DNA of 64,000 nt from positions 165,132,118-165,196,117 of the forward strand of contig OZ023265.1 of the NCBI GenBank assembly GCA_964006375.1. The letters run 5' to 3'. Positions 2,653 to 52,995 of this stretch are shown here, in pieces. Position 1 is the stretch's first letter. Every line of letters begins with the position of its first letter. Position numbers and translations under genes: made by a program. The notes beneath the pieces are model-generated. The model saw only the letters and a list, made by a program, of their open reading frames with translations. It made no database searches and had not been told where the DNA came from. Origin of the DNA: Tillus elongatus (taxonomy: Eukaryota > Arthropoda > Insecta > Coleoptera > Cleridae).

Positions 2653-2771
<119 letters not shown>

Positions 2772-3445
2772 CATGATTTGGGAACAAATGTTTTTGTCTG
2801 TCGGTCTGTGGATCTTCATGTCTGTCTGTTTATGGTCACGATAACTTTAGAACGAAATGAGATATCGTTTTCAAATTTAGTACACAGTTAGCATTCGACA
2901 AACGAACGGTTCGTATTGTTTTTGGGTAAAATCAATTTCGGTGGTAACAAATGAATGGGGGGTGATTTGGTAAAAATTGATGTATTTAAGTTAGACCTCG
3001 TGTAATATAACGTTTTAGGGTGTATTTATTAGAAAAATTTTAATTTCATCCAACATCTGGTATTTTGTGCTAAAATTAAATTACGGATTGAATGTGTGGG
3101 GGTTTAATATTGCTGACAAAAATTTCAATTTTTTTTTTGCTAAAACTTCATATAGAGTTTCAAAACATATAGCAAACTTAATTGTGGAAGGCAAATTGTT
3201 TGTCTGTGGGTGTGTCGGTCGGTAGGTCTGTCGGCATGTACGTCTGTCTGTCAGTAGGCGCAATAATGTTCGAACGAATTGAGATATCATCTTCAAATTT
3301 TGTATCAAGTTAGCACCCGACAAAGGACCTCTTCTAATTGTTTTTGGGTAAGATCACTTCAGGGGATAGGGGATAAATAAGGGGTGACTTGTTGAGAATT
3401 TACATTTTTTCGAGTAACAAAACGTTTTAAAAGTTTATGGGTACA

Positions 3446-3791
3446 GGAATACAAATATTTTCTTTGTGGTCAAGTCATGAGAATGTCTTTCTGAAGAGTA
3501 TTAATTATCACAGCTTCACAGATTCATTTCGCAGCACTATTTTTTAATGCTTTAAATTTCAATAACACAATGTACCCAAGGTTCGTCGGCTAGGAAACCA
3601 GTTTTTTCGGGAACATTTTAATAGTATTTTTGAAATTTTTTTTTTGCATTTTCAAACAACAAAATTTAATTAAATATGGTACATAGCTCCTACTATATAT
3701 TGTTACATTCTACGGGGTTCTGGATTTGTTGACTAACAAAACACAGCTTTTCAAACTACTATTTATTATAACCAACTATTTTCCAACACCA
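3446..3791 (+). repeat. Upstream copy of the long direct repeat flanking LINE copy A
   Basis: These 346 bp (GGAATACAAATATTTTCTTT... to ...TTTTCCAACACCA) recur at 5538-5868 with few changes apart from a ~15-bp indel. The repeat is itself composite. Its first ~255 bp belong to the inverted-repeat module of family R, and 3701-3791 are the start of an LTR whose full copy lies at 5778-6218. Position and sequence fit a target-site duplication made when the LINE inserted. Confidence 0.8.

Positions 3792-41713: not shown

Positions 41714-41784
<71 letters not shown>
41596..41784 (+). repeat. Family-R half copy with (TA)n, left flank of the Polinton
   Basis: Palindrome at about 41597-41626, ATATCCGGGGTCAGTTTCAA, then (TA)n 41718-41784. 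The R sequence that should follow the microsatellite is missing on the far side of the Polinton. Confidence 0.8.
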
Positions 41785-41786
<2 letters not shown>

Positions 41787-43638
41787 TAGGTATAGATGGT
41801 ATGTTCTGGAACCACCACCCACCACACACCACCGGTGGTGGAGGTGGAGGTGGAGGTGGTGGAACTGACCAGACCCGACGGCCTCCGACCAGACCCGAGC
41901 ATAAGGTGGTGGAGCTACTGACCAGACCCGAGCACCTCCACCACCTGACTTCGTATTTAACCCGAACAAGTAGCGAACTAACCTGAGATGACGTGAGCAC
42001 CTCCACCACCTGACTTCGTATTTAACCCGAACAAGTAGCGAACTAACCTGAGATGACGTAATCAAAAGCCAACTAACCTGTATTACGCCAGTTAAAATAA
42101 CATGCGTAATAAGAAGGTAATTATTAGTAATAAACCACATGCCAAAGACTAACCTGGTTATTAAAATCAAATCAATTTAAAATTATCTCATTAGAATTAA
42201 TATAAATAACGTCGTATGTAGGATGAAAATTAAGTCGATCGAATTAAATGGGAACCACCATTGAAAATGACGTGAAGCACTCGTCCCAGAATAATAATAT
42301 TATTAAAGCTGTTAGTATTGGATAAAGTATAAAAAGGTATTTACTTATATTTAAAAGGATAGGAAAATTCGCTACCATACCACACTTGCTGCGTTCAGCT
42401 TATTTATGTAAAAATTGGTAGACCAACTCACCAGACATAATCACCTTCAGACATAGCTTATTTTCGTAAAACGTTTTAGTTCTCATTTTTCACAAAAAAA
42501 AAACTAGACACATATTGATACAAAGTCACCAACAAACCATAGCTCTATATACACAGAACTTTCTACAAATAAACACACCTTCTCGCTTCACTAAAACCTA
42601 AACACCTGTAATGAAAACACACCTATGGTTTATTTAAATGTAAGCAAACAGTAATACACTTAAACATCTGATGCATTTTAGGTAAGATTCAAAAAATTAT
42701 TAAACACATAATTGTCATGACCGCACCCGACTGATGATTTAAACTGTTATTAGCAGGCTATTCACCTAAAGCGGAAACACTTGTGATAACGGTTAATCAG
42801 CTGGTGGCTGATGTACTAATGCGTTTGCACTAAAATCATAACGTTTTATTTCGCTTCCCAGATCATATGACGGCTTTAGTTTAAATAGAGAATCGGTAGC
42901 GAATTTTTATATAAGTTATTTGGTGTAAATTATTTTATTAGAAAATTGAAATACATGTTTTTTATATCGTAAACCCACCAAATTTGTTTCTTAGACAACG
43001 GTTTAAGGTTAGAAATAAAACACTCGATTGTAATACAATTAATTTATTAGGAGTAATAAGATTTACATACAAAATATTACATAATGGCTCTTACAATACC
43101 AGTTAGAGGTTTATATTCAAATACACAGTCATGAATAATTAAACAGTAGGCCCTAGTTCTCGGAGCAAAATTGTCTTTACTCATAAACTCCACTTTGATG
43201 TCGACTGTTGAAGACTTGATTGATTCATTCTGGTGTTGGCAATCGATTACAAATAGAGCTCGATCTTTAAACTCATCATAATTTAAAAGAGGCTCCGACA
43301 TGTTTTTATAGTAAAAACTTTTTTGAAAATCTGTATACATCTGGTAGGCTTCAACATATTTTGATCTTTCGAAATCCATATTCATAGCTTCATAAGGGTA
43401 GCATTCTGAATTTAGGAACACTCGTAGATCTACCATACCGATGTTATCGAAGAAGTCACCTTTTTTGCTAATGTTATCTTTCCGATCTGTTTGAAACGCT
43501 ATAATCACATATCTAGGTCTTTCCAAGTTGGTTGCAGTTTTAACAGCCCACACATCTCTGTTTATATCTCTGAGTGATGGTAGCTCATATATATCCCATT
43601 TCCGATATGCGAGAAATATAGATGTGTCTTTTGCTATT
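41785..43638 (+). repeat. Polinton left terminal inverted repeat, extending into the capsid gene
   Basis: It pairs with 51167-52928. The outer ~445 bp (to about 42231) are almost identical. The middle (about 42232-42960) is similar but rearranged by several indels. The inner part (about 42960-43638), which includes the capsid stop and the last ~187 codons, is again about 99% identical. The tip has a purine-rich GGTGGAGGTGGAGGTGG run (41829-41862) next to CACCACCGGTGGTG. A 65-bp unit is repeated in tandem at 41930-41994 and 41995-42059. Confidence 0.9.
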
Positions 43639-44282
43639 TTATCCATCAGTTCCAGCTTCATTTGATCGTTTGGAAATACATGTTTTGCTTTTAAAAACAT
43701 GTTGGTTACAGTTATCTTAGATCTTGCTGTACCTGTGCTGTAATAGCAGTTGGAATCATTTCGAGCTCTTGTAAATCGGAAAGTATGTTTGCCACAGAGA
43801 ACTCCTTTAAAGTGATGAAAGAAACTGAAGAGGAACCAAAGAGGTAGGAGCAAGTGAAACTTGTTATCGTTTAAGGTGATGTGATCTGATGATACATTTA
43901 ACCCAGCATTGCTAAGAGATTTTGCTTCATTCTTACTAAACGAAAGCAGAGTTTTGATGTTTGTTGTGGTGTATGGATCTCGTACTCGCTCCACTTCCTT
44001 GTTATTTAATTCATAGATCATTGATTCAAACAGAGCTACTCCTCCGTTATTTGACATGTGGCAGACACCAGTAGCATTTTGTACTGCTAGAGGTTCCAAA
44101 GCACCTTCGATTATTAGAGCTGACTCTGCTAGACATACGAATGCATCTTGCTGATTGATGTTTATTTCAACTTCATCGCTGTTACCAAACGATTTAGTTG
44201 ATGAATAGTAAGACCTAAGTTCTTCTCGATCAATGGAGTCGTCAAACTTGGGGTCTTTGAATATTTCTAGTTTTGATGACAT
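43077..44282 (-). CDS. Polinton major capsid protein (double jelly-roll)
   Basis: The product, 401 residues from the ATG at 44282, would form the pseudohexameric capsomers of the predicted icosahedral virion. I recognise it by overall similarity to insect Polinton capsid proteins. The N-terminal LEIFKDPKFDDSID and the beta-rich SYYSSTKSFGNSDEVEINI start the first jelly roll, and the LGxx-free C-terminal part (KWDIYELPSLRD, VDLRVFLNSECYPYEAMNMD) the second. The frame extends nine codons upstream only through a TTG, so ATG 44282 is preferred. AATAAA lies just past the stop (about 43049-43044). The length is at the short side of the family. The last 187 codons lie in the inverted repeat and are duplicated at 51167-51729. 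It overlaps the small ORF upstream by 41 nt. Confidence 0.85.
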   Translation of the reverse strand: MSSKLEIFKDPKFDDSIDREELRSYYSSTKSFGNSDEVEININQQDAFVCLAESALIIEGALEPLAVQNATGVCHMSNNGGVALFESMIYELNNKEVERVRDPYTTTNIKTLLSFSKNEAKSLSNAGLNVSSDHITLNDNKFHLLLPLWFLFSFFHHFKGVLCGKHTFRFTRARNDSNCYYSTGTARSKITVTNMFLKAKHVFPNDQMKLELMDKIAKDTSIFLAYRKWDIYELPSLRDINRDVWAVKTATNLERPRYVIIAFQTDRKDNISKKGDFFDNIGMVDLRVFLNSECYPYEAMNMDFERSKYVEAYQMYTDFQKSFYYKNMSEPLLNYDEFKDRALFVIDCQHQNESIKSSTVDIKVEFMSKDNFAPRTRAYCLIIHDCVFEYKPLTGIVRAIM

Positions 44283-44403
44283 GATAACCAAGACTTTTAA
44301 GGAATTCAATATTATCGGAACGAAGTGTATGCTTCAAAGGAGCTGATTGTACTAAATTTGTTTTGGTAGATTCGCTTGCTTTTATATCTTTAAAGACTAG
44401 CAT
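44242..44403 (-). CDS. Small Polinton ORF between penton and capsid genes (53 aa)
   Basis: An ATG at 44403 opens one base after the penton-gene stop. The frame runs 53 codons, ending inside the capsid gene in another frame (41-nt overlap). The product is basic and contains HTLRSDNIEFLKSLGYHVI. Tight placement between two structural genes, with no other use of this 120-bp gap, supports a real gene. I cannot name its function, and the conserved look of the FLKSLG phrase is only an impression. A chance frame is possible. Confidence 0.5.
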   Translation of the reverse strand: MLVFKDIKASESTKTNLVQSAPLKHTLRSDNIEFLKSLGYHVIKTRNIQRPQV

Positions 44404-44404
44404 T

Positions 44405-45121
44405 CTAGGCAATCTTTTTAAGCTCTAAGCGAACAGACACCTCTTCACCTTGAAAGTTTACAGGAACTGAATCTTGATCCACGATGTCGATGCTTATATT
44501 TGAAATCTCTCGTTTGTTTACTGGTAAATAAATTAGATTCTTAGGTTCTATATCGATTGCATAACCAGGATCGACCATCGGTGCAAACTCATATAACGTA
44601 TGTGAAGGTTTTCCATTATAGTAAGAACCAGACACAATATTAGTTTCTATACGAATCTGTTTAACATCCACTATTTCAACAGGTAAATCAGATTCATGGA
44701 AGACACCTGGTTGAAGAACTTGCTTTGAAAATCCCAGCATTCGCCCAATCGAATCATCAGATTCAAAACTGATACTTGTGAAACACTTTATTTCACATCT
44801 AATGGTGTTGGGATTAGGTCTTAGAATCAAAGCTAGCTGCTTTTGTTCACGTGTTGCTGTAGCACCAACAAGTTCATTTTGAAGCAAGTTTTCCAAATGT
44901 GTTATTTCATATGCACCAGTAGGTATCGTGATGATTCTCCAAGCAGCTCCTTCTTTTACATAAAATTTATTTTTACCTTTATATATGTTAGGTATGTTGT
45001 TGTATGTGTGAAAACCTATCAAAGCAACTGCATAACTACCACCTGGATCCAATTCAATTGGAGGATCGTAGTCTGTTGACAGATGACAACTGCGATCTTT
45101 CAACGTGAAGGTTTGCGACAT
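44405..45121 (-). CDS. Polinton minor capsid (penton-like) protein
   Basis: 238 residues from an ATG 16 nt after the protease stop. It has no enzymatic motif. The sequence is beta-strand rich (YDPPIELDPGGSYAVALIGF, IPTGAYEITHLENLLQN, EVSVRLELKK), matching the single-jelly-roll minor capsid protein that sits at the fivefold vertices in Polintons and related viruses. Its place next to the capsid and protease genes fits. The phrase DSIGRMLGFSKQVL is typical of this group. I assign it by family resemblance and context. The frame is intact and of usual length. Confidence 0.82.
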   Translation of the reverse strand: MSQTFTLKDRSCHLSTDYDPPIELDPGGSYAVALIGFHTYNNIPNIYKGKNKFYVKEGAAWRIITIPTGAYEITHLENLLQNELVGATATREQKQLALILRPNPNTIRCEIKCFTSISFESDDSIGRMLGFSKQVLQPGVFHESDLPVEIVDVKQIRIETNIVSGSYYNGKPSHTLYEFAPMVDPGYAIDIEPKNLIYLPVNKREISNISIDIVDQDSVPVNFQGEEVSVRLELKKIA

Positions 45122-45137
45122 GACTGAAACACAGATA

Positions 45138-45467
45138 CTACTGTTTAAGTCTTTTATTTAAAAATTTTAAACATAAATGACCACAATTATAAGTATTATA
45201 TTTCTGATACACATCATGATTGTACATTAGAGTAGAGTCTTTAAGGTAACGCTGCAGCTCAACTGGTGGCTTCAAGTTTCCATATGAGTCAAAGTACACG
45301 GTTGTGTCACCACGTTTCTTAACTGCAACCCAATGACTGCCAGGTTCCTTGTTTGTTTGCAAATTCATGATAAGTGATTCATTCTTGCGTGGCCCATTCG
45401 ATGGCAAAGTATCTCGCATGTATACACCTCTAAAATATGGAATTTTCATTTTACCAGCAAATTTCAC
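45138..45467 (-). CDS. Polinton maturation protease (adenovirus-type cysteine protease)
   Basis: It would cleave capsid precursors during virion maturation. Counting from the GTG at 45467, the catalytic set is His45 (GSHWVAV), Asp60 (VYFDSYG), Gln88 and Cys95 (YNCGHLC), in the order and spacing of clan CE adenain-type proteases. The conserved N-terminal part (LTNEDLVKFAGKMK then IPYFRGVYMRD) begins upstream of the first ATG (45449). The frame is open back to a stop at 45546-45548 with no ATG at all, so the start is not an ordinary one. It overlaps the end of the PLA2 gene in the -1 frame at a frameshift-like signal (see 45426-45518), and I infer that it is made as a fusion. Read that way, the protease part has 124 codons from 45512. 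Confidence 0.88.
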   Translation of the reverse strand: MKFAGKMKIPYFRGVYMRDTLPSNGPRKNESLIMNLQTNKEPGSHWVAVKKRGDTTVYFDSYGNLKPPVELQRYLKDSTLMYNHDVYQKYNTYNCGHLCLKFLNKRLKQ

Positions 45468-45518
45468 AAGGTCTTCATTTGTTAGAGGTCTTGCTGGTAA
45501 ACATCTTACTCGTTTTTT
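45426..45518 (-). promoter_or_regulatory. Candidate -1 programmed ribosomal frameshift signal
   Basis: On the coding (minus) strand the heptamer A_AAA_AAC lies at 45518-45512, in the X_XXY_YYZ phase of the PLA2 frame, one codon before its TAA (45508-45506). Ten nucleotides after it, TTTACCAGCAA (45501-45491) pairs perfectly with TTGCTGGTAAA (45460-45450), an 11-bp stem with a 30-nt loop. Within the loop ACCTCTAA (45489-45482) is complementary to TTAGAGGT downstream (45433-45426), so an H-type pseudoknot is possible. A -1 slip enters the protease frame directly. Heptamer, spacing and stem are seen; activity is inferred. Confidence 0.7.
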
Positions 45519-46327
45519 GGTTTCTGCAAATACAACCCATAACCGCTACGCTGCTTCTTCAGATATAATCCTTTACCTAGTCTCTTATACTTTGGTTTTA
45601 ATTTCAAACCATTACCTCTCTTACCCATAGCAATAGCCTCCATCGTTTTGTTATGCCGTTCTTCTTCTTCTAGTTTTTGTTTGGCTGATTTGGCATCGTT
45701 AACTGCTTTAGCAATGCCTGCAGCACCGCCACCCAGAGCACCTAGCGCTGACAGGCCACCAAAAATTAAAGGTAGTAGTGGAAGGAAGCCTCCGCTTTTA
45801 GGTATTGGAATAACTCGCGGTTTCAGCACATTCTTACGCCCACCAATCTGTTTAACAATTGCGTGAGCGATATCAAACACGGCATTCTCTGATGGAATAA
45901 GATTTCTGTCTTTTATAACTTCTCCAACCAGACTAAGAATGTTTTTAAAGGGAACTTTTTTCCTCGGTTTTGAGTTGATTACATCAAGACCCATACCGAG
46001 CTTTCTTTTAACTTTCATGGTGTTTGTAACACTCCAAGCGGCTAACTTTTCACCAAAACTCGCGTCCTTTGACTTGACTCTCTCCCAAGCTCGATTCTCC
46101 AACACTTCGTCGGCTCGATGCCTATCACTTAACTCTTTTGATTGAGAGTAAGCGATGTCGTGATCTCGACAAGCACGATCTAAAGGATTGATACCTTGAT
46201 CACCTCTAGCAAGACGTTCTTTAAGTTTAGTGCCCGGGCCACAAAATTGATAACCAGGTACGTGCAGCTCAACAGATAGCTTGTTAATGGCTGTGTTTAC
46301 AAGACCTTCACCCTGTGACACCAACAT
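45506..46327 (-). CDS. Polinton virion protein with parvovirus-type phospholipase A2 domain
   Basis: 273 residues. Residues 24-60 hold a compact PLA2-like domain, with the calcium-loop motif YQFCGPGT (26-33) and the catalytic DHDIAY (His56-Asp57). In parvoviruses such a domain opens endosomal membranes. Residues 178-208 (GGFLPLLPLIFGGLSALGAL...) are a hydrophobic, glycine-rich segment. Residues 211-232 are charged and probably helical. The tail (236-262) is very basic with repeated KGLYL/YGLYL, like a DNA-condensing core peptide. I infer a multifunctional internal virion protein for entry and DNA packing. The start ATG at 46327 lies 26 nt from the divergent ATPase region. The end overlaps the protease frame at the shift signal. 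Confidence 0.82.
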   Translation of the reverse strand: MLVSQGEGLVNTAINKLSVELHVPGYQFCGPGTKLKERLARGDQGINPLDRACRDHDIAYSQSKELSDRHRADEVLENRAWERVKSKDASFGEKLAAWSVTNTMKVKRKLGMGLDVINSKPRKKVPFKNILSLVGEVIKDRNLIPSENAVFDIAHAIVKQIGGRKNVLKPRVIPIPKSGGFLPLLPLIFGGLSALGALGGGAAGIAKAVNDAKSAKQKLEEEERHNKTMEAIAMGKRGNGLKLKPKYKRLGKGLYLKKQRSGYGLYLQKPKNE

Positions 46328-46353
46328 TGATACTAACTGTGTGATCCGCTTAC

Positions 46354-46404
46354 ATGTCTATATTTATATACATACTCGAAAAATATAGTTTAGTTCCAGT
46401 CAAG
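46354..46404. promoter_or_regulatory. Divergent promoter region with TATA-like sequence
   Basis: TCTATATTTATATACAT (about 46357-46373) lies between the PLA2 gene (start 46327, minus) and the preferred ATPase ATG (46405, plus). The only short intergenic interval at the head of both gene groups makes it the likely shared promoter. The TATA sequence falls inside the ATPase frame if the upstream ATG (46354) were used, which is one reason to prefer 46405. Confidence 0.45.
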
Positions 46405-47097
46405 ATGCACACCATCAAACACGCTTCTGTCTTACCTATTACAAATATAGACGATGTTGTTGATACAGCAGAACAACAACTAAGGCATGGTCCTCTCTTC
46501 CCAAACACAGTTAGAGGTATCATATGTGGTCCTAGTGGGTGTGGTAAAACAAATGTTATGTTAAGTTTATTGTTTGAACCGAACGGTTTAAAGTTTGATA
46601 ACGTGTATGTGTATTCAAAGTCTCTGTATCAACCTAAATATAAGATGTTACAAAGGGTGTTGGATGCTACAAAAAGTGTTGGTTATTATCCATATAGTGA
46701 AAACGATGAAATATTAGATCCAGCAGAAGCCCAGGACAACTCGGTGTTTATATTCGATGATGTGGCTTGTGACAAACAAGATAAAATGAGAGCATACTTT
46801 AGTATGGGGAGACATAAGAATATTGATTCATTCTATCTCTGTCAAACATATACTCGAATACCCAAACATCTGATACGTGATAACGCTAACGTTTTGATTC
46901 TCTTTAAACAAGATGAAACGAACTTAAAACACATCTATGACGATCATGTGACCACTGATATGGACTTTAAACAATTTAAAAATATATGTTGTCAATGCTG
47001 GAATGGTAATAAGTATGGTGTGTTGGTGATTGTAAAAGAAAACGAAGTCCACAGAGGGAGATATAGAAAAGGATTCGATAGCTACATATTAATCTAA
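46405..47097 (+). CDS. Polinton genome-packaging ATPase (FtsK/HerA, A32-like)
   Basis: 230 residues; the motor expected to pump element DNA into the capsid. Walker A GPSGCGKT is at 42-49, Walker B VFIFDDVAC at 114-122, and the sensor-like CQTYTRIPK at 146-154. The DNAN/LFKQDETNLKHIYDDHV region follows. The order and length match packaging ATPases of Polintons and large DNA viruses. An in-frame ATG at 46354 would add 17 residues, but the hydrophobic addition is not typical of the family. It is the first gene of the plus-strand group, 408 bp ahead of the next gene, from which a tandem repeat separates it. Confidence 0.9.
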   Translation: MHTIKHASVLPITNIDDVVDTAEQQLRHGPLFPNTVRGIICGPSGCGKTNVMLSLLFEPNGLKFDNVYVYSKSLYQPKYKMLQRVLDATKSVGYYPYSENDEILDPAEAQDNSVFIFDDVACDKQDKMRAYFSMGRHKNIDSFYLCQTYTRIPKHLIRDNANVLILFKQDETNLKHIYDDHVTTDMDFKQFKNICCQCWNGNKYGVLVIVKENEVHRGRYRKGFDSYILI

Positions 47098-47160
47098 TGG
47101 TCTACAACTAACAACAACAAAGAGATGTCTAGCAGGACAACCAACCAGCTAACAAGACAG

Positions 47161-47374
47161 ACAACCTGTCTAAAACAACCTGTCTAAAACAACCTGTCTA
47201 AAACAACTTGTCTAAAACAACCTGTCTAAAACAACTTGTCTAAAACAACCTGTCTAAAACAACTTGTCTAAAACAACTTGTCTAAAACAACCTGTCTAAA
47301 ACAACCTGTCTAAAACAACCTGTCTAACAACCTGTCTAACAACCTGTCTAACAACCTGTCTAACAACCTGTCTA
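47161..47374. repeat. Short tandem repeat: eleven 14-bp units, then five 12-bp units
   Basis: ACAACCTGTCTAAA (with T for C in some units) repeats from 47161 to 47314, then ACAACCTGTCTA from 47315 to 47374. The two differ only by the final AA, so the array seems to have grown in two phases. It fills the ATPase-DUF8207 intergenic space, and partial ACCTGT/GTTAG-like pieces continue to about 47400. It may hold regulatory sites, but nothing in the sequence shows that. Confidence 0.9.
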
Positions 47375-47505
47375 ACAACCGGGTCTACCTGTTGTGTTAG
47401 ATACCTAACACTAGATAGGCAGACATACAACCAATTCAAAGCTAGTACACCTTAAACCACCGAACTGTTTGCATCTCTTAACACGAAACAAATAACTTTA
47501 GCAAG

Positions 47506-48543
47506 ATGGAGGTGATGAGTAACCAAGAGAGAAAAATTAAGAAAAAGATTTTACAACTTGCTGAAAACATTCGAAAAAAACATTTAATACTTAAGCTTGG
47601 TAGAGCTGAGAATGATGAAGCCCTGCAGCGTTTATATAAACCACTTGTTGACCCACTGAGTGAAATATCTAAAAATACATCAACGCTTAAACTGCAGTCA
47701 CCAGCTGAACAAATCAAAGAAGAAGCGGTACCAGAAAAGAAACCCAAAGTTGAGTTCCTTAAAGACCATGAAGTTTTTGAAGCCGAACCAGAAGTAGAGA
47801 CAAGTTTTGATGATGAGGATATCCCAACATTTGAAGAGCTTGAGGTAGATCTACAAACTGTCACAAACAACCCAGCATATCAAGAATTTTTGGAGCAATA
47901 TCCTGAACGAGTTCGATATTATGTAGACAAGTATTTTACTGAACCACCGAGGCTTGCTACTATTGATCAAACGTATGGTGCTCGCTACGCTAAAGATACT
48001 GGTAGTTGGAGTCTTGGCAATAAACACTTGGACTTTACTGATAATGACATTCGACTAGGTCAAAGGAGATATCCGCAAACACAAGGTCTGCTAGAATTGA
48101 TATTTATGAAAACACCTAGAGGGTATACCTATGACGATCTTCAACACTATAGAGATATTCTAGAAGCAACTAGTGTTCATAAAATGAACTACGATCCCAA
48201 CGCACGAACCAAGGGTTGTTCCTCGGAAAAGTATCTGACTCTAATAAAACCAGTTATAAACCCAAGAGGACGAAGATCCTCAACTCCTCAAGGTTTTGGT
48301 TACGACACACATCATAACGCAGAACAAAAAACTGAACCTAGAGCTCAGAATGTAAGCAGCAACACTAACAACTATATGCTACAAAATAACAAACAAATAG
48401 AATATGTCTATTGGGATGACATAAATGAGCTGGTTGATAGACTTAGACTTTTAGTAGCTTCCCAAGCTGCTGGTAATAATGCTCATAACAATGAAATTCA
48501 GTCAATCATTGAAGAACTGAAGGAGGTTGGTGTTATCGCCTAA
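47506..48543 (+). CDS. Polinton protein of unknown function (DUF8207-type)
   Basis: 345 residues. An N-terminal basic helix (QERKIKKKILQLAENIRKKH) is followed by an acidic, probably disordered stretch (about 60-115). Next comes a conserved core (about 160-235) with WSLGNKHLDFTDNDIRLGQR, QGLLELIFMKTPRGYTYDDL and YRDILEATSVHKMNYDPNAR. A polar linker and the C-terminal YVYWDDINELVDRLRLLVAS...IQSIIEELKEVGVI complete it. This pattern recurs in insect Polintons under a domain of unknown function. I cannot state its role; its position with packaging and fibre-like genes suggests a virion component. The ATG at 47506 follows the tandem repeat by 132 bp. Confidence 0.75.
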   Translation: MEVMSNQERKIKKKILQLAENIRKKHLILKLGRAENDEALQRLYKPLVDPLSEISKNTSTLKLQSPAEQIKEEAVPEKKPKVEFLKDHEVFEAEPEVETSFDDEDIPTFEELEVDLQTVTNNPAYQEFLEQYPERVRYYVDKYFTEPPRLATIDQTYGARYAKDTGSWSLGNKHLDFTDNDIRLGQRRYPQTQGLLELIFMKTPRGYTYDDLQHYRDILEATSVHKMNYDPNARTKGCSSEKYLTLIKPVINPRGRRSSTPQGFGYDTHHNAEQKTEPRAQNVSSNTNNYMLQNNKQIEYVYWDDINELVDRLRLLVASQAAGNNAHNNEIQSIIEELKEVGVIA

Positions 48544-48592
48544 TATACCTACATATATCACAGATATACCTACCTTAGTGCTTAGTATAAAA

Positions 48593-49042
48593 ATGTCTAT
48601 CGATAAGTTCGGACGTTCCCAATCCAATAAAGGTTCTAAGTTTAAAATTATTGAAAGAGAGATTTTCCCAAGAACTGATAGTGGTGATTTTGATTTGCAA
48701 AGCCATAGATTGTGTAACATCGCTGATCCAGTCGATGCAACAGATGGTGTAAATAAAAAATTTGTTGATGTATGGATAGACGACTATCAGAAGAACAAAG
48801 ATGAGGTAAAACAAAGAATCATTGCCATACTACTTGAAGCTGTACACAAACCTGAGTTGGAAGATTTAAAAAACGAATTTGAAAATAAATTGAAAATTTT
48901 AGCTAAGAACATAACTACTCAAGTTTTAAAAGATATTGATGTGTTAAAGAATAAGAAGCTAAAGAATAAGCTGGGAGAAATAGACAGCAAACTAAAAGAT
49001 TTACATGATAAGTGGATACTTTTAAATCCAACATCGCCATGA
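48593..49042 (+). CDS. Polinton fibre/spike-like coiled-coil protein
   Basis: 149 residues from ATG 48593, 50 bp after the previous gene. Residues 41-58 read NIADPVDATDGVNKKFVD, a motif widespread in tail-fibre and virion spike proteins just before a trimeric coiled coil. The rest (about 59-145) is highly charged and heptad-like (DLKNEFENKLKILAKNIT, KLKNKLGEIDSKLKDLHDKW). I infer a trimeric rod or attachment protein; no receptor-binding head is seen. Its stop TGA (49040-49042) overlaps the integrase ATG as ATGA. The N-terminal SIDKFGRS phrase may anchor it to the capsid, but that is a guess. Confidence 0.6.
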   Translation: MSIDKFGRSQSNKGSKFKIIEREIFPRTDSGDFDLQSHRLCNIADPVDATDGVNKKFVDVWIDDYQKNKDEVKQRIIAILLEAVHKPELEDLKNEFENKLKILAKNITTQVLKDIDVLKNKKLKNKLGEIDSKLKDLHDKWILLNPTSP

Positions 49043-49983
49043 GACGCAAAACTGTTGAACCATCTGATGCTAAAAAACAAATTATTGATGAGTTATATAA
49101 ACCAGCAAGAATCAATTTTAAACGTAGACGTACAATAATCAAAGGTTTAAATGATTTATGGCAGATTGATTTAGCAGAATTTACAGACTACTACAAAGCA
49201 AACTCTGGTTACAAGTATATTTTAGTGGTTATTAATTGTTTTTCAAAGTACGTGTGGACTCGCCCTCTTAAATCTAAAACTGCTGAAGAGGTGACTAAAG
49301 CTATGGCTGATATTTTATCTACTAGTACAGCGCCCTCTAACATCCAGTCTGATCTTGGTCGCGAGTTCTATAACTCAAAATTTAACGCCTTAATGAAAAA
49401 ATATAACATCAATCACTACAGCACTTATAGTGTGAAGAAGGCTGCAATGGTGGAAAGAGTCATACGTACCTTGAAAGAGAAGATATATAAAAATTTCAAC
49501 TTGATTGGCTCCTACAAGTGGGTTAATACACTACCTGATGTCACTGCTACTTACAACACTACTGTTCATCGAACAACTGGTGTAAAACCTCAAGATGTTA
49601 ACAAGAAAAATGAAAAAGCTATTCTGAAACAAGTTTACTCAAATCTGAAAGTGTTTAACAAAAATAAATTTAAAGTGGGTGATGTTGTACGTATAAGTAA
49701 AGCAAAAGCTCAATTTGAAAAGGGGTATACACCTCGCTGGTCAACAGAATTATTCAAGATTGTTAGTATTCATTTCACAAATCCAGTAACATACTTTCTT
49801 GAAGATATGCAGGGGAAACCAATCAGTGGAGGGTTTTACGAGGAAGAACTACAAACGACTAAACAAACAGACATCTATCTGGTTGAACGCATCTTGAGGA
49901 AGAAAGGCAAGCAGCTCTATGTAAAATGGCTGGGTTTTGATAAATCTCAGAATTCTTGGATAAATTCAGATGATGTTAAATAA
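49039..49983 (+). CDS. Polinton integrase with chromodomain
   Basis: 314 residues; the retroviral-type integrase that inserts the element. The DDE triad is Asp44 (WQIDLAEF), Asp105 (QSDLGREF) and Glu139 (AAMVERVIRTLKEK), with 33 residues between the last two. The SH3-like region around 211-270 has FKVGDVVRISKAK. The C-terminal chromodomain (about 280-314) has VERILRKKGKQLYVKWLG and NSWI, expected to bind modified histones and bias target choice. The start is the ATG in ATGA overlapping the previous stop; the GTG at 49012 is not needed. All catalytic residues are present, so the protein may be active. Convergent with the KilA-N gene. Confidence 0.93.
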   Translation: MRRKTVEPSDAKKQIIDELYKPARINFKRRRTIIKGLNDLWQIDLAEFTDYYKANSGYKYILVVINCFSKYVWTRPLKSKTAEEVTKAMADILSTSTAPSNIQSDLGREFYNSKFNALMKKYNINHYSTYSVKKAAMVERVIRTLKEKIYKNFNLIGSYKWVNTLPDVTATYNTTVHRTTGVKPQDVNKKNEKAILKQVYSNLKVFNKNKFKVGDVVRISKAKAQFEKGYTPRWSTELFKIVSIHFTNPVTYFLEDMQGKPISGGFYEEELQTTKQTDIYLVERILRKKGKQLYVKWLGFDKSQNSWINSDDVK

Positions 49984-50014
49984 GCTTATATATTTAATGT
50001 ATTAATGTACTTAG

Positions 50015-50040
50015 AATAAAATAAAAGTCTTTATTAAAAT
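50015..50040. terminator. Overlapping polyadenylation signals of convergent genes
   Basis: AATAAA at 50015-50020 serves the plus-strand integrase (stop 49983), and its inverse TTTATT at 50030-50035 serves the minus-strand KilA-N gene (stop 50093). They are only 9 bp apart, a compact virus-like arrangement. The assignment rests on the hexamers alone. Confidence 0.5.
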
Positions 50041-50092
50041 AATGTTATTTTATTTTTTCATCTGGTTACATACAATTAAGCTAAGTGAACAA

Positions 50093-51031
50093 TTACAATT
50101 TATGTCGTAAATCAATAATATCCTGAATAAACTTCTCCTGAGGTACATCTGCTATCTGTAGATCGTTTCTCTTCGCCTTGAGGTATTCGACTTCGGTCTT
50201 TATTCTGTTAAAGAGATTTACAGAATTTGGATCATACAACATGTTTAAAACTACTTCGGAATTAGGGTGTTTATTTTTAAAGTTCTTGACAGCTCTTTTA
50301 AAACTTTTCTTCTGAGTCCTTACAGCATGATATGGATAGGTAGCATCCTTCTCATTTCTTGAAAGCAAACCAAAAACACAAAGTTTTCCAGGGTTGCTTG
50401 GTTTTGGAGATATATCTTCTAAATGTTCTGTGATTTTAGCATTTGTTTCTCGCATACGCTGCACTTCATCATCTATCTCCATTAATTTCACTTCAATTTC
50501 TTTGAGGTTATCCTTGTATTTTTGATTAAATTCACTTACGAAAAAATCAAAAATAATTTGGTTGCACTTTTCATAGAAACTATTGGATATCCAACAAGCC
50601 AAATTTAATATTAAATCTTTACAGACATATGTACCAGATATCAAGTTGTTTTCAGCTTGTCTTCCACCAAAGTCCACCAAGTATGTAGCGGTTGTAGGTG
50701 TTAGTTGAGATGTTGCTTCCGACACTTCTAGGGGGCCAGTATTCCGGCTCCCTGGAGATGAGTCTAAGTGGGCTCCTTTGGTTGAAATATTTAGGGTATC
50801 GGTATTCCGGCTACCTAACTGTTTCTTTAGCCGACCGTTGTAATAGACAATCAACTCTTTAGTTTTCTTATTTTCCAGCCAATGTCTGAATCTTTTCTCA
50901 CCATCTTTACACAGCTTAGTCGCATTAAAATAACCAGTGTTCTTATCGATAATTAGTTGAAAGTCTCCAAATAAACCATACCAGAAGTTATCTTTCATTT
51001 GCTGGTAACACACATCACTTAATGTAGCCAT
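50093..51031 (-). CDS. KilA-N / DUF3627-type DNA-binding protein carried by the Polinton
   Basis: 312 residues from ATG 51031 (a GTG 21 nt upstream is less likely). The KilA-N domain is divided. Its first part (about 13-65) has FWYGLFGDFQLIID, TGYFNATKLC and RHWLENKKT; its second (about 117-165) has YVCKDLILNLACWISNSFYE. Between them is a 50-residue, low-complexity insert in which GSRNT occurs twice (73-77, 94-98). A coiled coil covers about 165-205, and the C-terminal part (215-300: CVFGLLSRN, YPYHAVRTQKKSFKRAVKN, NLFNRI) matches the DUF3627-type tail that follows KilA-N in large insect DNA viruses. Function is probably DNA binding and regulation. Exchange between Polintons and such viruses is the likely source. 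Confidence 0.85.
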   Translation of the reverse strand: MATLSDVCYQQMKDNFWYGLFGDFQLIIDKNTGYFNATKLCKDGEKRFRHWLENKKTKELIVYYNGRLKKQLGSRNTDTLNISTKGAHLDSSPGSRNTGPLEVSEATSQLTPTTATYLVDFGGRQAENNLISGTYVCKDLILNLACWISNSFYEKCNQIIFDFFVSEFNQKYKDNLKEIEVKLMEIDDEVQRMRETNAKITEHLEDISPKPSNPGKLCVFGLLSRNEKDATYPYHAVRTQKKSFKRAVKNFKNKHPNSEVVLNMLYDPNSVNLFNRIKTEVEYLKAKRNDLQIADVPQEKFIQDIIDLRHKL

Positions 51032-51113
51032 TTTAAACACACTACTGAGCACTTGGATACGTTAGAGTTAACTGAAGCACGTCTTACTTACCTCTACGAT
51101 AACTAAATTTTGA

Positions 51114-51611
51114 ATGAGTTTAACAGTGTGTAGTGAACAATTTATAGATGTTGATACCACTATCGTAATAGCAAAAGACACATCTATATTTCTCGCATAT
51201 CGGAAATGGGATATATATGAGCTACCATCACTCAGAGATATAAACAGAGATGTGTGGGCTGTTAAAACTGCAACCAACTTGGAAAGACCTAGATATGTGA
51301 TTATAGCGTTTCAAACAGATCGGAAAGATAACATAAGCAAAAAAGGTGACTTCTTCGATAACATCGGTATGGTAGATCTACGAGTGTTCCTAAATTCAGA
51401 ATGCTACCCTTATGAAGCTATGAATATGGATTTCGAAAGATCAAAATACGTTGAAGCCTACCAGATGTATACAGATTTTCAAAAAAGTTTTTACTATAAA
51501 AACATGTCGGAGCCTCTTTTAAATTATGATGAGTTTAAAGATCGAGCTCTATTTGTAATCGATTGTCAACACCAGAATGAATCAATCAAGTCTTCAACAG
51601 TCGACATCTAA
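51114..51611 (+). pseudogene. Inverted partial copy of the major capsid gene, with chimeric start
   Basis: From 51167 onward the sequence repeats the 3' end of the capsid gene (43638 down to 43077) in inverted position. An ATG at 51114 adds 18 unrelated codons in frame, giving a 165-residue chimera. A TAA at 51609-51611 (AAA in the left copy) stops it. The original stop would be at 51727-51729. It lacks the first two thirds of the protein and is not expected to form capsids. Confidence 0.85.
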
Positions 51612-52926
51612 GTTGAGTTTATGAGTAAAGACAATTTTGCTCCGAGAACTAGGGCCTACTGTTTAATTATTCATGATTGTGTATTTGAATATAAACCTCT
51701 AACTGGTATTGTAAGAGCCATTATGTAATATTTTGTATGTAAATCTTATTACTCCTAATAAATTAATTATATTCCAATCGAGTGTTTTATTTCTAACCTT
51801 AAACCGTTGTCTAAGAAACAAATTTGGTGGGTTTACGACATAAAAAACATGTATTTCAATTTTCTAATAAAATAATTTTCACCAAATAATTTCTATGAAA
51901 ATTCGCTACCGATTCTCTATTTAAACTAAAGCCGTCATATGATCTGGGCATTCACCTATCATATCAGCCGGAAGCCGACGATAATGCAACGGTTACTCAG
52001 CTGGTATACTATTTACACGATTGAAATAAAAACATAACGTTTTGTTTGCATGTGATTTAATTCGATCGAGTTAATTTTTTAATTGTCATGACCGCACCCA
52101 GCTGATTAACCGTTATCAAGAGTGTTTCCGGTTTTGTTGAGTGACCAGCTAATACCCTCAGTTTAAATCATCAGCCGGGTGCATCATGAAAATTATGTGT
52201 TTAATAATTTTTGGAATCTTACCTAATAAGCCATAGGTGTGTTTTCAATACAGGTGTATAGGCTTAGTGAAGCGAGAAGTTGTGTTTATTTGTAGAAATT
52301 TCTGTGTATATAGAGCTATGGTTTGTTGGTGGCTTTGTATCAATCTGTGTCTAGTTTTTTGTGAAAAATCAGAACTAAAACGTTTTACGAAAATAATCTA
52401 AGTCTGGAGGCAATGACTATGTTTGGTGAGTTACTGAGTAATTTTTTGATATAGAACTGAGCTTAAAACCTAGGTACAGCTAATTTTCATCCTACATACG
52501 ACGTTATTTATATTAATTCTAATGAGATAATTTTTAATTGATTTGATTTTAATAACCAGGTTAGTCTTTGGCATGTGGTTTATTACTAATAATTACCTTC
52601 TTATTACGCATGTTATTTTAACTGGCGTAATACAGGTTAGTTGGCTTTTGATTACGTCATCTCAGGTTAGTTCGCTACTTGTTCGGGTTAAATACGAAGT
52701 CAGGTGGTGGAGGTGCTCACGTCATCTCAGGTTAGTTCGCTACTTGTTCGGGTTAAATACGAAGTCAGGTGGTGGAGGTGCTCGGGTCTGGTCAGTAGCT
52801 CCACCACCTTATGCTCGGGTCTGGTCGGAGGCCGTCGGGTCTGGTCAGTTCCACCACCTCCACCTCCACCTCCACCACCGGTGGTGTGTGGTGGGTGGTG
52901 GTTCCAGAACATACCATCTATACCTA

Positions 52927-52928
<2 letters not shown>
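51167..52928 (-). repeat. Polinton right terminal inverted repeat
   Basis: It is the partner of 41785-43638, 92 bp shorter because of indels in the middle part. The region 51940-52090 contains a segment absent from the left copy (about 140 bp, including ATTCACCTATCATATCAGCC). The left copy in turn has sequence near 42240-42420 not present here, including a degenerate R terminal repeat (ACCATACCACACTTGCTGCG). The 65-bp tandem pair and the purine-rich tip are conserved here in inverted form. Confidence 0.9.

Positions 52929-52992
<64 letters not shown>
52929..52992. repeat. (TA)n at the right end of the Polinton
   Basis: Continuation of the target TA array. LINE sequence follows directly. Confidence 0.9.

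Positions 52993-52995
<3 letters not shown>

Follow-up and report, generated by a model that had tools for sequence, protein, structure and literature searches.

In a Polinton of the beetle Tillus elongatus, an adenain-like cysteine protease is encoded in the -1 frame relative to a PLA2 virion protein whose gene it overlaps. The question raised by this locus is how such a protease is translated and how it would come to be inside a particle. A sequence-only reading of the window (the whole stretch of DNA analysed, 64,000 nucleotides of contig OZ023265.1) had proposed a -1 frameshift joining the two proteins, and the proposal is supported by related elements, in which the heptamer and the -1 register recur in eleven groups and an ATG is missing in nine. 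Judged from these sequences, programmed -1 ribosomal frameshifting very probably gives a minority PLA2-protease product of 396 residues.

The element and its PLA2-protease junction

The window's Polinton lies at 41718-52995, with inverted arms of 782 nt (98%) and 515 nt (100%) on either side of its genes:

41718..43638, no strand: left inverted-repeat region (arms 41718-42232 and 42857-43638)
43077..44309, minus strand: double jelly-roll major capsid protein ORF (PF21738, E 8e-77)
44405..45121, minus strand: ORF adjoining the protease, 238 aa, presumed from its position to be a minor capsid protein
45138..45512, minus strand: adenain-like cysteine protease, -1 frame, 124 residues and stop (PF02902, E 1.4e-4)
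45506..46327, minus strand: PLA2 virion-protein ORF, 273 aa, zero frame (PF08398, E 5.5e-12)
46354..47097, plus strand: A32-like packaging ATPase ORF (PF04665, E 1e-8)
49012..49983, plus strand: integrase (PF00665, E 9e-12) with chromodomain (PF00385, E 5e-5, under its curated cut-off)
51167..52995, no strand: right inverted-repeat region (arms 51167-51948 and 52481-52995)

The features that mark a Polinton/Maverick are present as an rve integrase with chromodomain, an A32-like ATPase, a double jelly-roll capsid protein, an adenain-like protease and terminal inverted repeats. A protein-primed PolB is not among them, the ORFs that overlap 34000-58000 reaching no more than 410 aa, short of PolB size, and the 3' part of the capsid gene is present again in the inverted-repeat arms (ORF 51114-51611 repeats part of 43077-44309); for these two reasons the copy looks like a PolB-less derivative. 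The PLA2 domain of the 273-codon ORF is of the parvovirus type, its sequence match to parvovirus VP1 chains being weak (best E 0.0013), and a Pfam search with the 238-aa ORF gave no match. The element also carries a gene with KilA-N and DUF3627 domains on the minus strand at 50093-51052; such genes are typical of large DNA viruses.

The junction itself, all on the minus strand, consists of the following:

45512..45518: slippery heptamer A_AAA_AAC, in phase with PLA2 (read from the sequence, conserved)
45506..45508: zero-frame stop TAA, one codon past the heptamer (read from the sequence)
45490..45501: stem 1, 5' arm, with 11 Watson-Crick pairs and one G-U
45450..45461: stem 1, 3' arm
45482..45489: stem 2 (pseudoknot), 5' arm in the stem 1 loop
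45426..45433: stem 2 (pseudoknot), 3' arm

The PLA2 ORF ends in CAG AAA CCA AAA AAC GAG TAA, and a 10-nt spacer separates the heptamer from stem 1, whose 11 Watson-Crick pairs join 45501-45491 with 45460-45450. The 8 pairs of stem 2 join 45489-45482 with 45433-45426, and the connecting stretches of the pseudoknot are 1, 21 and 16 nt long. The heptamer, spacer, stem and pseudoknot had been placed by the sequence-only reading at exactly these positions, and its description of the protease frame was likewise confirmed: the -1 frame runs uninterrupted across the overlap, starting directly behind a TAG that ends 27 nt ahead of the heptamer and reaching the stop at 45138, and has no ATG ahead of the conserved protease start LPARPLT. 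From the heptamer onward this frame contributes 124 residues, giving a fusion of 272+124 = 396. An in-phase heptamer, a structure at the typical distance of 5-10 nt 3' of it, and an open -1 frame holding a conserved domain without an ATG, by which a frameshift site is recognised, are thus found together.

The heptamer by itself is common (47 copies of AAAAAAC in the window, 38.4 expected), and the significance of the junction rests on phase, position, the long stem with its pseudoknot, and conservation. None of 3000 dinucleotide-shuffled versions of the downstream 100 nt contained an 11-bp Watson-Crick stem at a spacer of 3-12 nt, and the combined energy of stem and pseudoknot in the window was matched by 0 of 150 shuffles. 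The ordinary minimum free energy fold of the 90 nt downstream is unexceptional (z -1.08), and an Rfam search returned a single snoRNA match at chance level (E 6.6).

Conservation of the probable slip site

At the protein level, 116 of the best 120 of 3036 PLA2 homologues found end in x-K-N followed by zero, one or two residues (29, 41 and 46 sequences) and the stop, a count in which related sequences are treated as independent trials. The residue x is S in 43, P in 31, Q in 28, K in 5, T in 4, A in 2, and R, E and V in 1 each, and is compatible with an NNA codon in 116 of 116, against 78% of flanking residues further upstream. As scored, the ending is missed in P0150, P0191, P0198 and P0202, with KN followed by five residues in P0191. 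Among 90 database proteases, with P0014, P0032, P0070 and P0078 classed by eye, seven (P0016, P0035, P0039, P0043, P0045, P0054 and P0061) contain KK-L-xxx-LP, the -1 reading of AAAAAAC, in a register that matches the window's KK-R-VRC-LP, while 27, by our count, are predicted to start at or no more than 3 codons from LP. Of the remaining 56, eleven (P0009, P0018, P0034, P0053, P0069, P0073, P0074 and P0080-P0083; P0009 is possibly too short to judge) extend upstream of LP without the KK-x-xxx-LP register, and therefore not every lineage has the slip register; the others have their start further downstream.

A profile of 37 proteases matched human adenovirus adenain (1avp) with E 1.6e-7, and since profile positions 11-121 align with adenain 5-134, the protease domain starts a few residues past the slip site. 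His65, Gln108 and Cys115 are invariant in the 37-sequence alignment and Asp80 nearly so; these four we take to be the catalytic set, by analogy with adenain. The motif LPxRxLTNxDLxKYAK is conserved at the protease N-terminus, inside the stretch aligned with adenain from its residue 5.

DNA-level conservation was surveyed in the 1.72-Gb assembly of the window's own genome with four protease queries (the window protease, P0017, P0005 and P0068), each giving 2701 to 3534 first-look candidates (3534 for the window protease) of which 150 were scored. The best matches supplied 33 loci, and 60 further loci were picked by hand from the tables to cover different-looking rows, for a total of 93 (L003-L095, the window itself being L005), of which 91 were anchored on the protease motif (the exceptions are L086 and L088). 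An in-phase NNA_AAA_AAC is present in 84 loci (59 of 63 and 25 of 28), and is combined with a protease in the -1 frame in 81 of the 93, counts that treat related copies as independent. Within the 81, an upstream indel shifts the PLA2 frame in L046 and some others carry stops. In three single copies, L078, L080 and L081, lengthening of the A run places PLA2 and protease in one frame, through either mutation or homopolymer sequencing error, and the arrangement is absent from seven loci (L027, L028, L051, L053, L079, L085 and L094). Many of the protease copies in this genome are nearly identical, which suggests recent bursts. The divergent single copy L079 (G000:C5:104421684-104422937) has a virion-protein tail and protease in one frame with a T10 run at the junction, no heptamer and no intact PLA2 part; nothing firm is drawn from it.

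Sorting by eye gave eleven groups: F1 (the window), F2 (L024), F3 (L034), F3b (L050), F3c (L047), F4 (L039), F5 (L011), F6 (L020), F7 (L031), F8 (L087) and F9 (L093). The closest pairs, F3-F3c and F1-F2, are 86-87% identical upstream, and the upstream PLA2 DNA of F5-F7 is 56-58% identical to that of the window. The codon ahead of AAA AAC is CCA, TCA, ACA or GCA across loci, and the codon past the heptamer encodes Glu, Phe, Val, Tyr, Leu, Thr or Met or is a stop; in all 81 counted loci exactly six A's precede the C. Elsewhere codon usage is mixed, with Lys as AAA in 137 of 181, Asn as AAC in 23 of 50, and 83 of 265 Pro, Ser (TCN), Thr and Ala codons ending in A.

These data bear on whether the protease might be translated separately, by reinitiation after the PLA2 stop or from an internal ATG or non-ATG start, with the KN ending arising by coincidence or from a coding constraint. 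In two of the eleven groups (F5, in L011 and its kin, and F9, in L093) an ATG that could allow reinitiation does lie between heptamer and LP, and the 27 proteases starting near LP would fit an ATG overlapping the PLA2 stop, although these are starts predicted at the protein level; in a distant relative, L002, the protease starts from an ATG of its own, with no PLA2 ORF recognisable by eye ahead of it. However, nine of the eleven groups, the window included, are without such an ATG, and an internal start would remove the conserved LPxRxLTNxDLxKYAK from within the adenain-aligned stretch. Neither reinitiation nor an internal start explains why NNA_AAA_AAC survives where the upstream DNA has drifted as far as in F5-F7, and separate translation is accordingly considered improbable. 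The earlier claim of an ATG-less protease is upheld for the nine groups but not for F5 and F9, nor for some distant relatives whose proteases are free-standing and ATG-started or fused to integrase.

RNA structure and single-frame relatives

A 12-bp stem 1 and an 8-bp stem 2 are common to F1, F2, F3, F3b, F3c and F4, the stem spacer being 10 nt except in F4 (7 nt). The pseudoknot was found in these six of nine groups tested, and in each 0 of 150 shuffles reached it. In F5, F6 and F7 the heptamer is kept, and no stem or pseudoknot beats shuffles, an equally good pseudoknot arising in 130, 100 and 107 of 150, respectively; conservation of the slip site thus extends further than that of this structure. 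Third positions of amino-acid-invariant codons were compared for synonymous variation, and in the six groups 2 of 13 stem codons are variable versus 35 of 70 outside (one-sided Fisher p 0.020), a contrast that is modest because several codons bordering the stems do not vary either. Including F8 and F9, with the list of stem codons drawn slightly tighter, gives 3 of 11 versus 38 of 64 for eight groups (p 0.049). Six stem pairs vary among the eight groups, of which four stay paired through G-U and two are broken in F8; no pair is changed on both sides, and there is thus no true covariation. Of what the sequence-only reading proposed to look for by alignment across elements, the recurrence of heptamer and -1 overlap was borne out (in DNA within the window's own genome, at the protein level in other sources), while covariation of the stem was not seen; the stem and pseudoknot it described are kept within the window's clade with one-sided G-U changes, but are broken at two pairs in F8 and were not found in F5-F7.

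The A run, together with the structure, also bears on transcriptional slippage, in which RNA polymerase would add a base to give an A7 mRNA that reads from PLA2 into protease without a ribosomal slip. The signal is indeed an A run, the longer runs of L078, L080 and L081 do read in one frame, and a 3' structure was not found in F5-F7. Six A's are nonetheless short for transcriptional slippage, 81 loci have precisely A6 and then C, as suits tRNA slippage at A_AAA_AAC, and slippage by the polymerase would need no positioned pseudoknot; this explanation, too, is considered improbable.

A search for fusions, scored on the protease alone and open to fusion-sized proteins, gave 17 matches, of which nine were read. 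P0213 (303 aa, start missing, from a metagenome) and P0217 (362 aa, metagenome-type) each run from a PLA2 tail into the protease in a single frame. One-frame gene models are also present in Lucilia cuprina (P0212), Trichogramma kaykai (P0211) and Sitophilus oryzae (P0214), all possibly spliced by the annotator and the latter two without a Pfam PLA2 match; P0215 from Aphis glycines appears degenerate. A single frame would also result if mutation or a sequencing error had lengthened the run by one A, as in L078 and possibly P0213, an account that P0217, reading KKKAQIKFP, does not fit. In another lineage protease and integrase are joined in one protein, which is ATG-started in P0219, P0221 and P0225, as read from their sequences; P0220, P0222 and P0223 belong here according to their listed Pfam domains. 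Searches of viral contigs yielded nothing for the single protease or the protease alignment and one distant locus, L001, for the PLA2 alignment; genome contigs yielded nothing for PLA2 and one distant contig, that of L002, for the protease; and phages and plasmids searched with PLA2 yielded nothing. The L002 contig (JAKSCW010000563.1) is assigned to a Balneolales bacterium MAG but, given its Polinton-like protease with an ATG of its own, may be a misbinned eukaryotic virus contig.

The sequence-only reading had named an intron or an assembly indel as what might undo a frameshift, and neither was upheld. By eye, the window does contain a fair GT donor (GTAAGA from 45509) and a T-rich AG acceptor (TTTTAG ending at 45430), whose use would excise 80 nt, keep the frame and join PLA2 to protease as ...KNE-GVYMRD. 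Such an intron would, however, delete the conserved protease N-terminus, its donor is not kept (F2 has CGAATAGG, F4 CTAAAGTG and F8 ACGTAGG in its place), and P0213 and P0217 read through the junction in one frame; with conserved protein deleted and the donor not kept it was rejected, and is scarcely credible. An assembly indel was rejected because the KN ending (116 of 120, the best 120 of 3036) and the arrangement (81 of 93 own-genome loci) recur in relatives.

Reinitiation, an intron and transcriptional slippage each explain less than -1 ribosomal slippage, which is the simplest account. The anatomy of the junction, its conservation, the missing ATG and the related single-frame fusions are directly observed, and at the level of sequence comparison it is the conservation that makes the frameshift case convincing. 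A ribosome on the PLA2 virion-protein mRNA would arrive at CCA AAA AAC with the 12-bp/8-bp H-type pseudoknot ahead, and in a minority of passages its two tRNAs would slip back one base. Most ribosomes would stop one codon on to give the 273-aa PLA2 protein, with those that slipped entering the -1 frame to make the 396-aa PLA2-protease. With the virion protein as the N-terminal part of the fusion, assembling particles would take in the protease along with it at a fixed low ratio, and it would mature them there as Gag-Pro fusions do. The slipping, its rate and the co-packaging are what we infer, the fixed ratio by the precedent of Gag-Pol.

Comparison with known systems and implications

In retroviruses a slippery heptamer lies near the virion-protein stop with the maturation protease in the -1 frame. 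The window's junction resembles this Gag-Pro/Gag-Pol arrangement of retroviruses and retrotransposons in having an X_XXY_YYZ heptamer near a virion-protein stop, a maturation protease in -1 and a predicted minority fusion. Unlike the retroviral case, the Polinton is a DNA transposon/virus with an integrase and a double jelly-roll capsid, and pairs an adenain-like cysteine protease with a PLA2 partner in place of an aspartic protease with Gag. Coronavirus-type signals place an H-pseudoknot, its stem 1 measuring 11-12 bp, within about 10 nt of the heptamer. The window likewise has a stem 1 of 11-12 bp and a pseudoknot stem within about 10 nt, but differs in that stem 2 is 8 bp, with a stretch of 21 nt separating it from the 3' arm of stem 1, and in that the structure was not found in three divergent groups. 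The HIV frameshift fusion amounts to about 5%, according to PMC8537868.

The statement of the sequence-only reading that no frameshift had been described in Polintons requires some qualification. No description of a PLA2-protease frameshift was found in searches of open-access literature on Polintons, Mavericks, adintoviruses and virophages, but a 2024 preprint (PMC11071296) gives predicted slippery sites in adintovirus Penton and in a Hexon-Adenain fusion, which KnotInFrame pointed to in some of the genomes and which the preprint treats as hypothetical. These are similar in being predicted -1 frameshifts in Polinton-related viruses, in one case joining a capsid protein to adenain, and different in that the partners there are Penton and Hexon, whereas the window's is PLA2 and is conserved across groups. 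For the insect Sf Mavericks, the excerpts of PMC5803895 describe a PLA2-containing CAP and an adenain-like PRO, the same two proteins as the window's, as separate ORFs, and both uses of "frameshift" in those excerpts concern errantiviruses. In the corresponding excerpts of PMC8097293 and PMC8363768, the mentions of frameshift are of frameshift mutations and a search setting, and in those of PMC12567637 the ribosomal frameshift mentioned concerns a tombus-like virus.

In summary, -1 extension of the PLA2 virion protein is probably the main or sole source of the maturation protease across insect Polintons and would bring it into the particle at a set ratio, some lineages having fixed a single-frame fusion and others an ATG-started or integrase-fused protease. 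By analogy, the best reading of the PLA2-protease junction is a gag-pro-like logic in a DNA transposon/virus. What differs from PMC11071296 is PLA2 as the partner, with a slip site that is kept in most of the related elements checked. Maverick/Polinton particles had not been observed, as stated in the abstract of PMC8097293, and a conserved PLA2-protease frameshift predicts a capsid containing the PLA2 protein with a small share of PLA2-protease. Annotations of insect Polintons may accordingly list a truncated or missing protease. If true, the finding would mean that a double-stranded DNA lineage unrelated to retroviruses, with a protease like the adenoviral one, had arrived convergently at the logic of retroviral Gag-Pro, and selection on an RNA-level signal would support the view that these elements were making particles not long ago.
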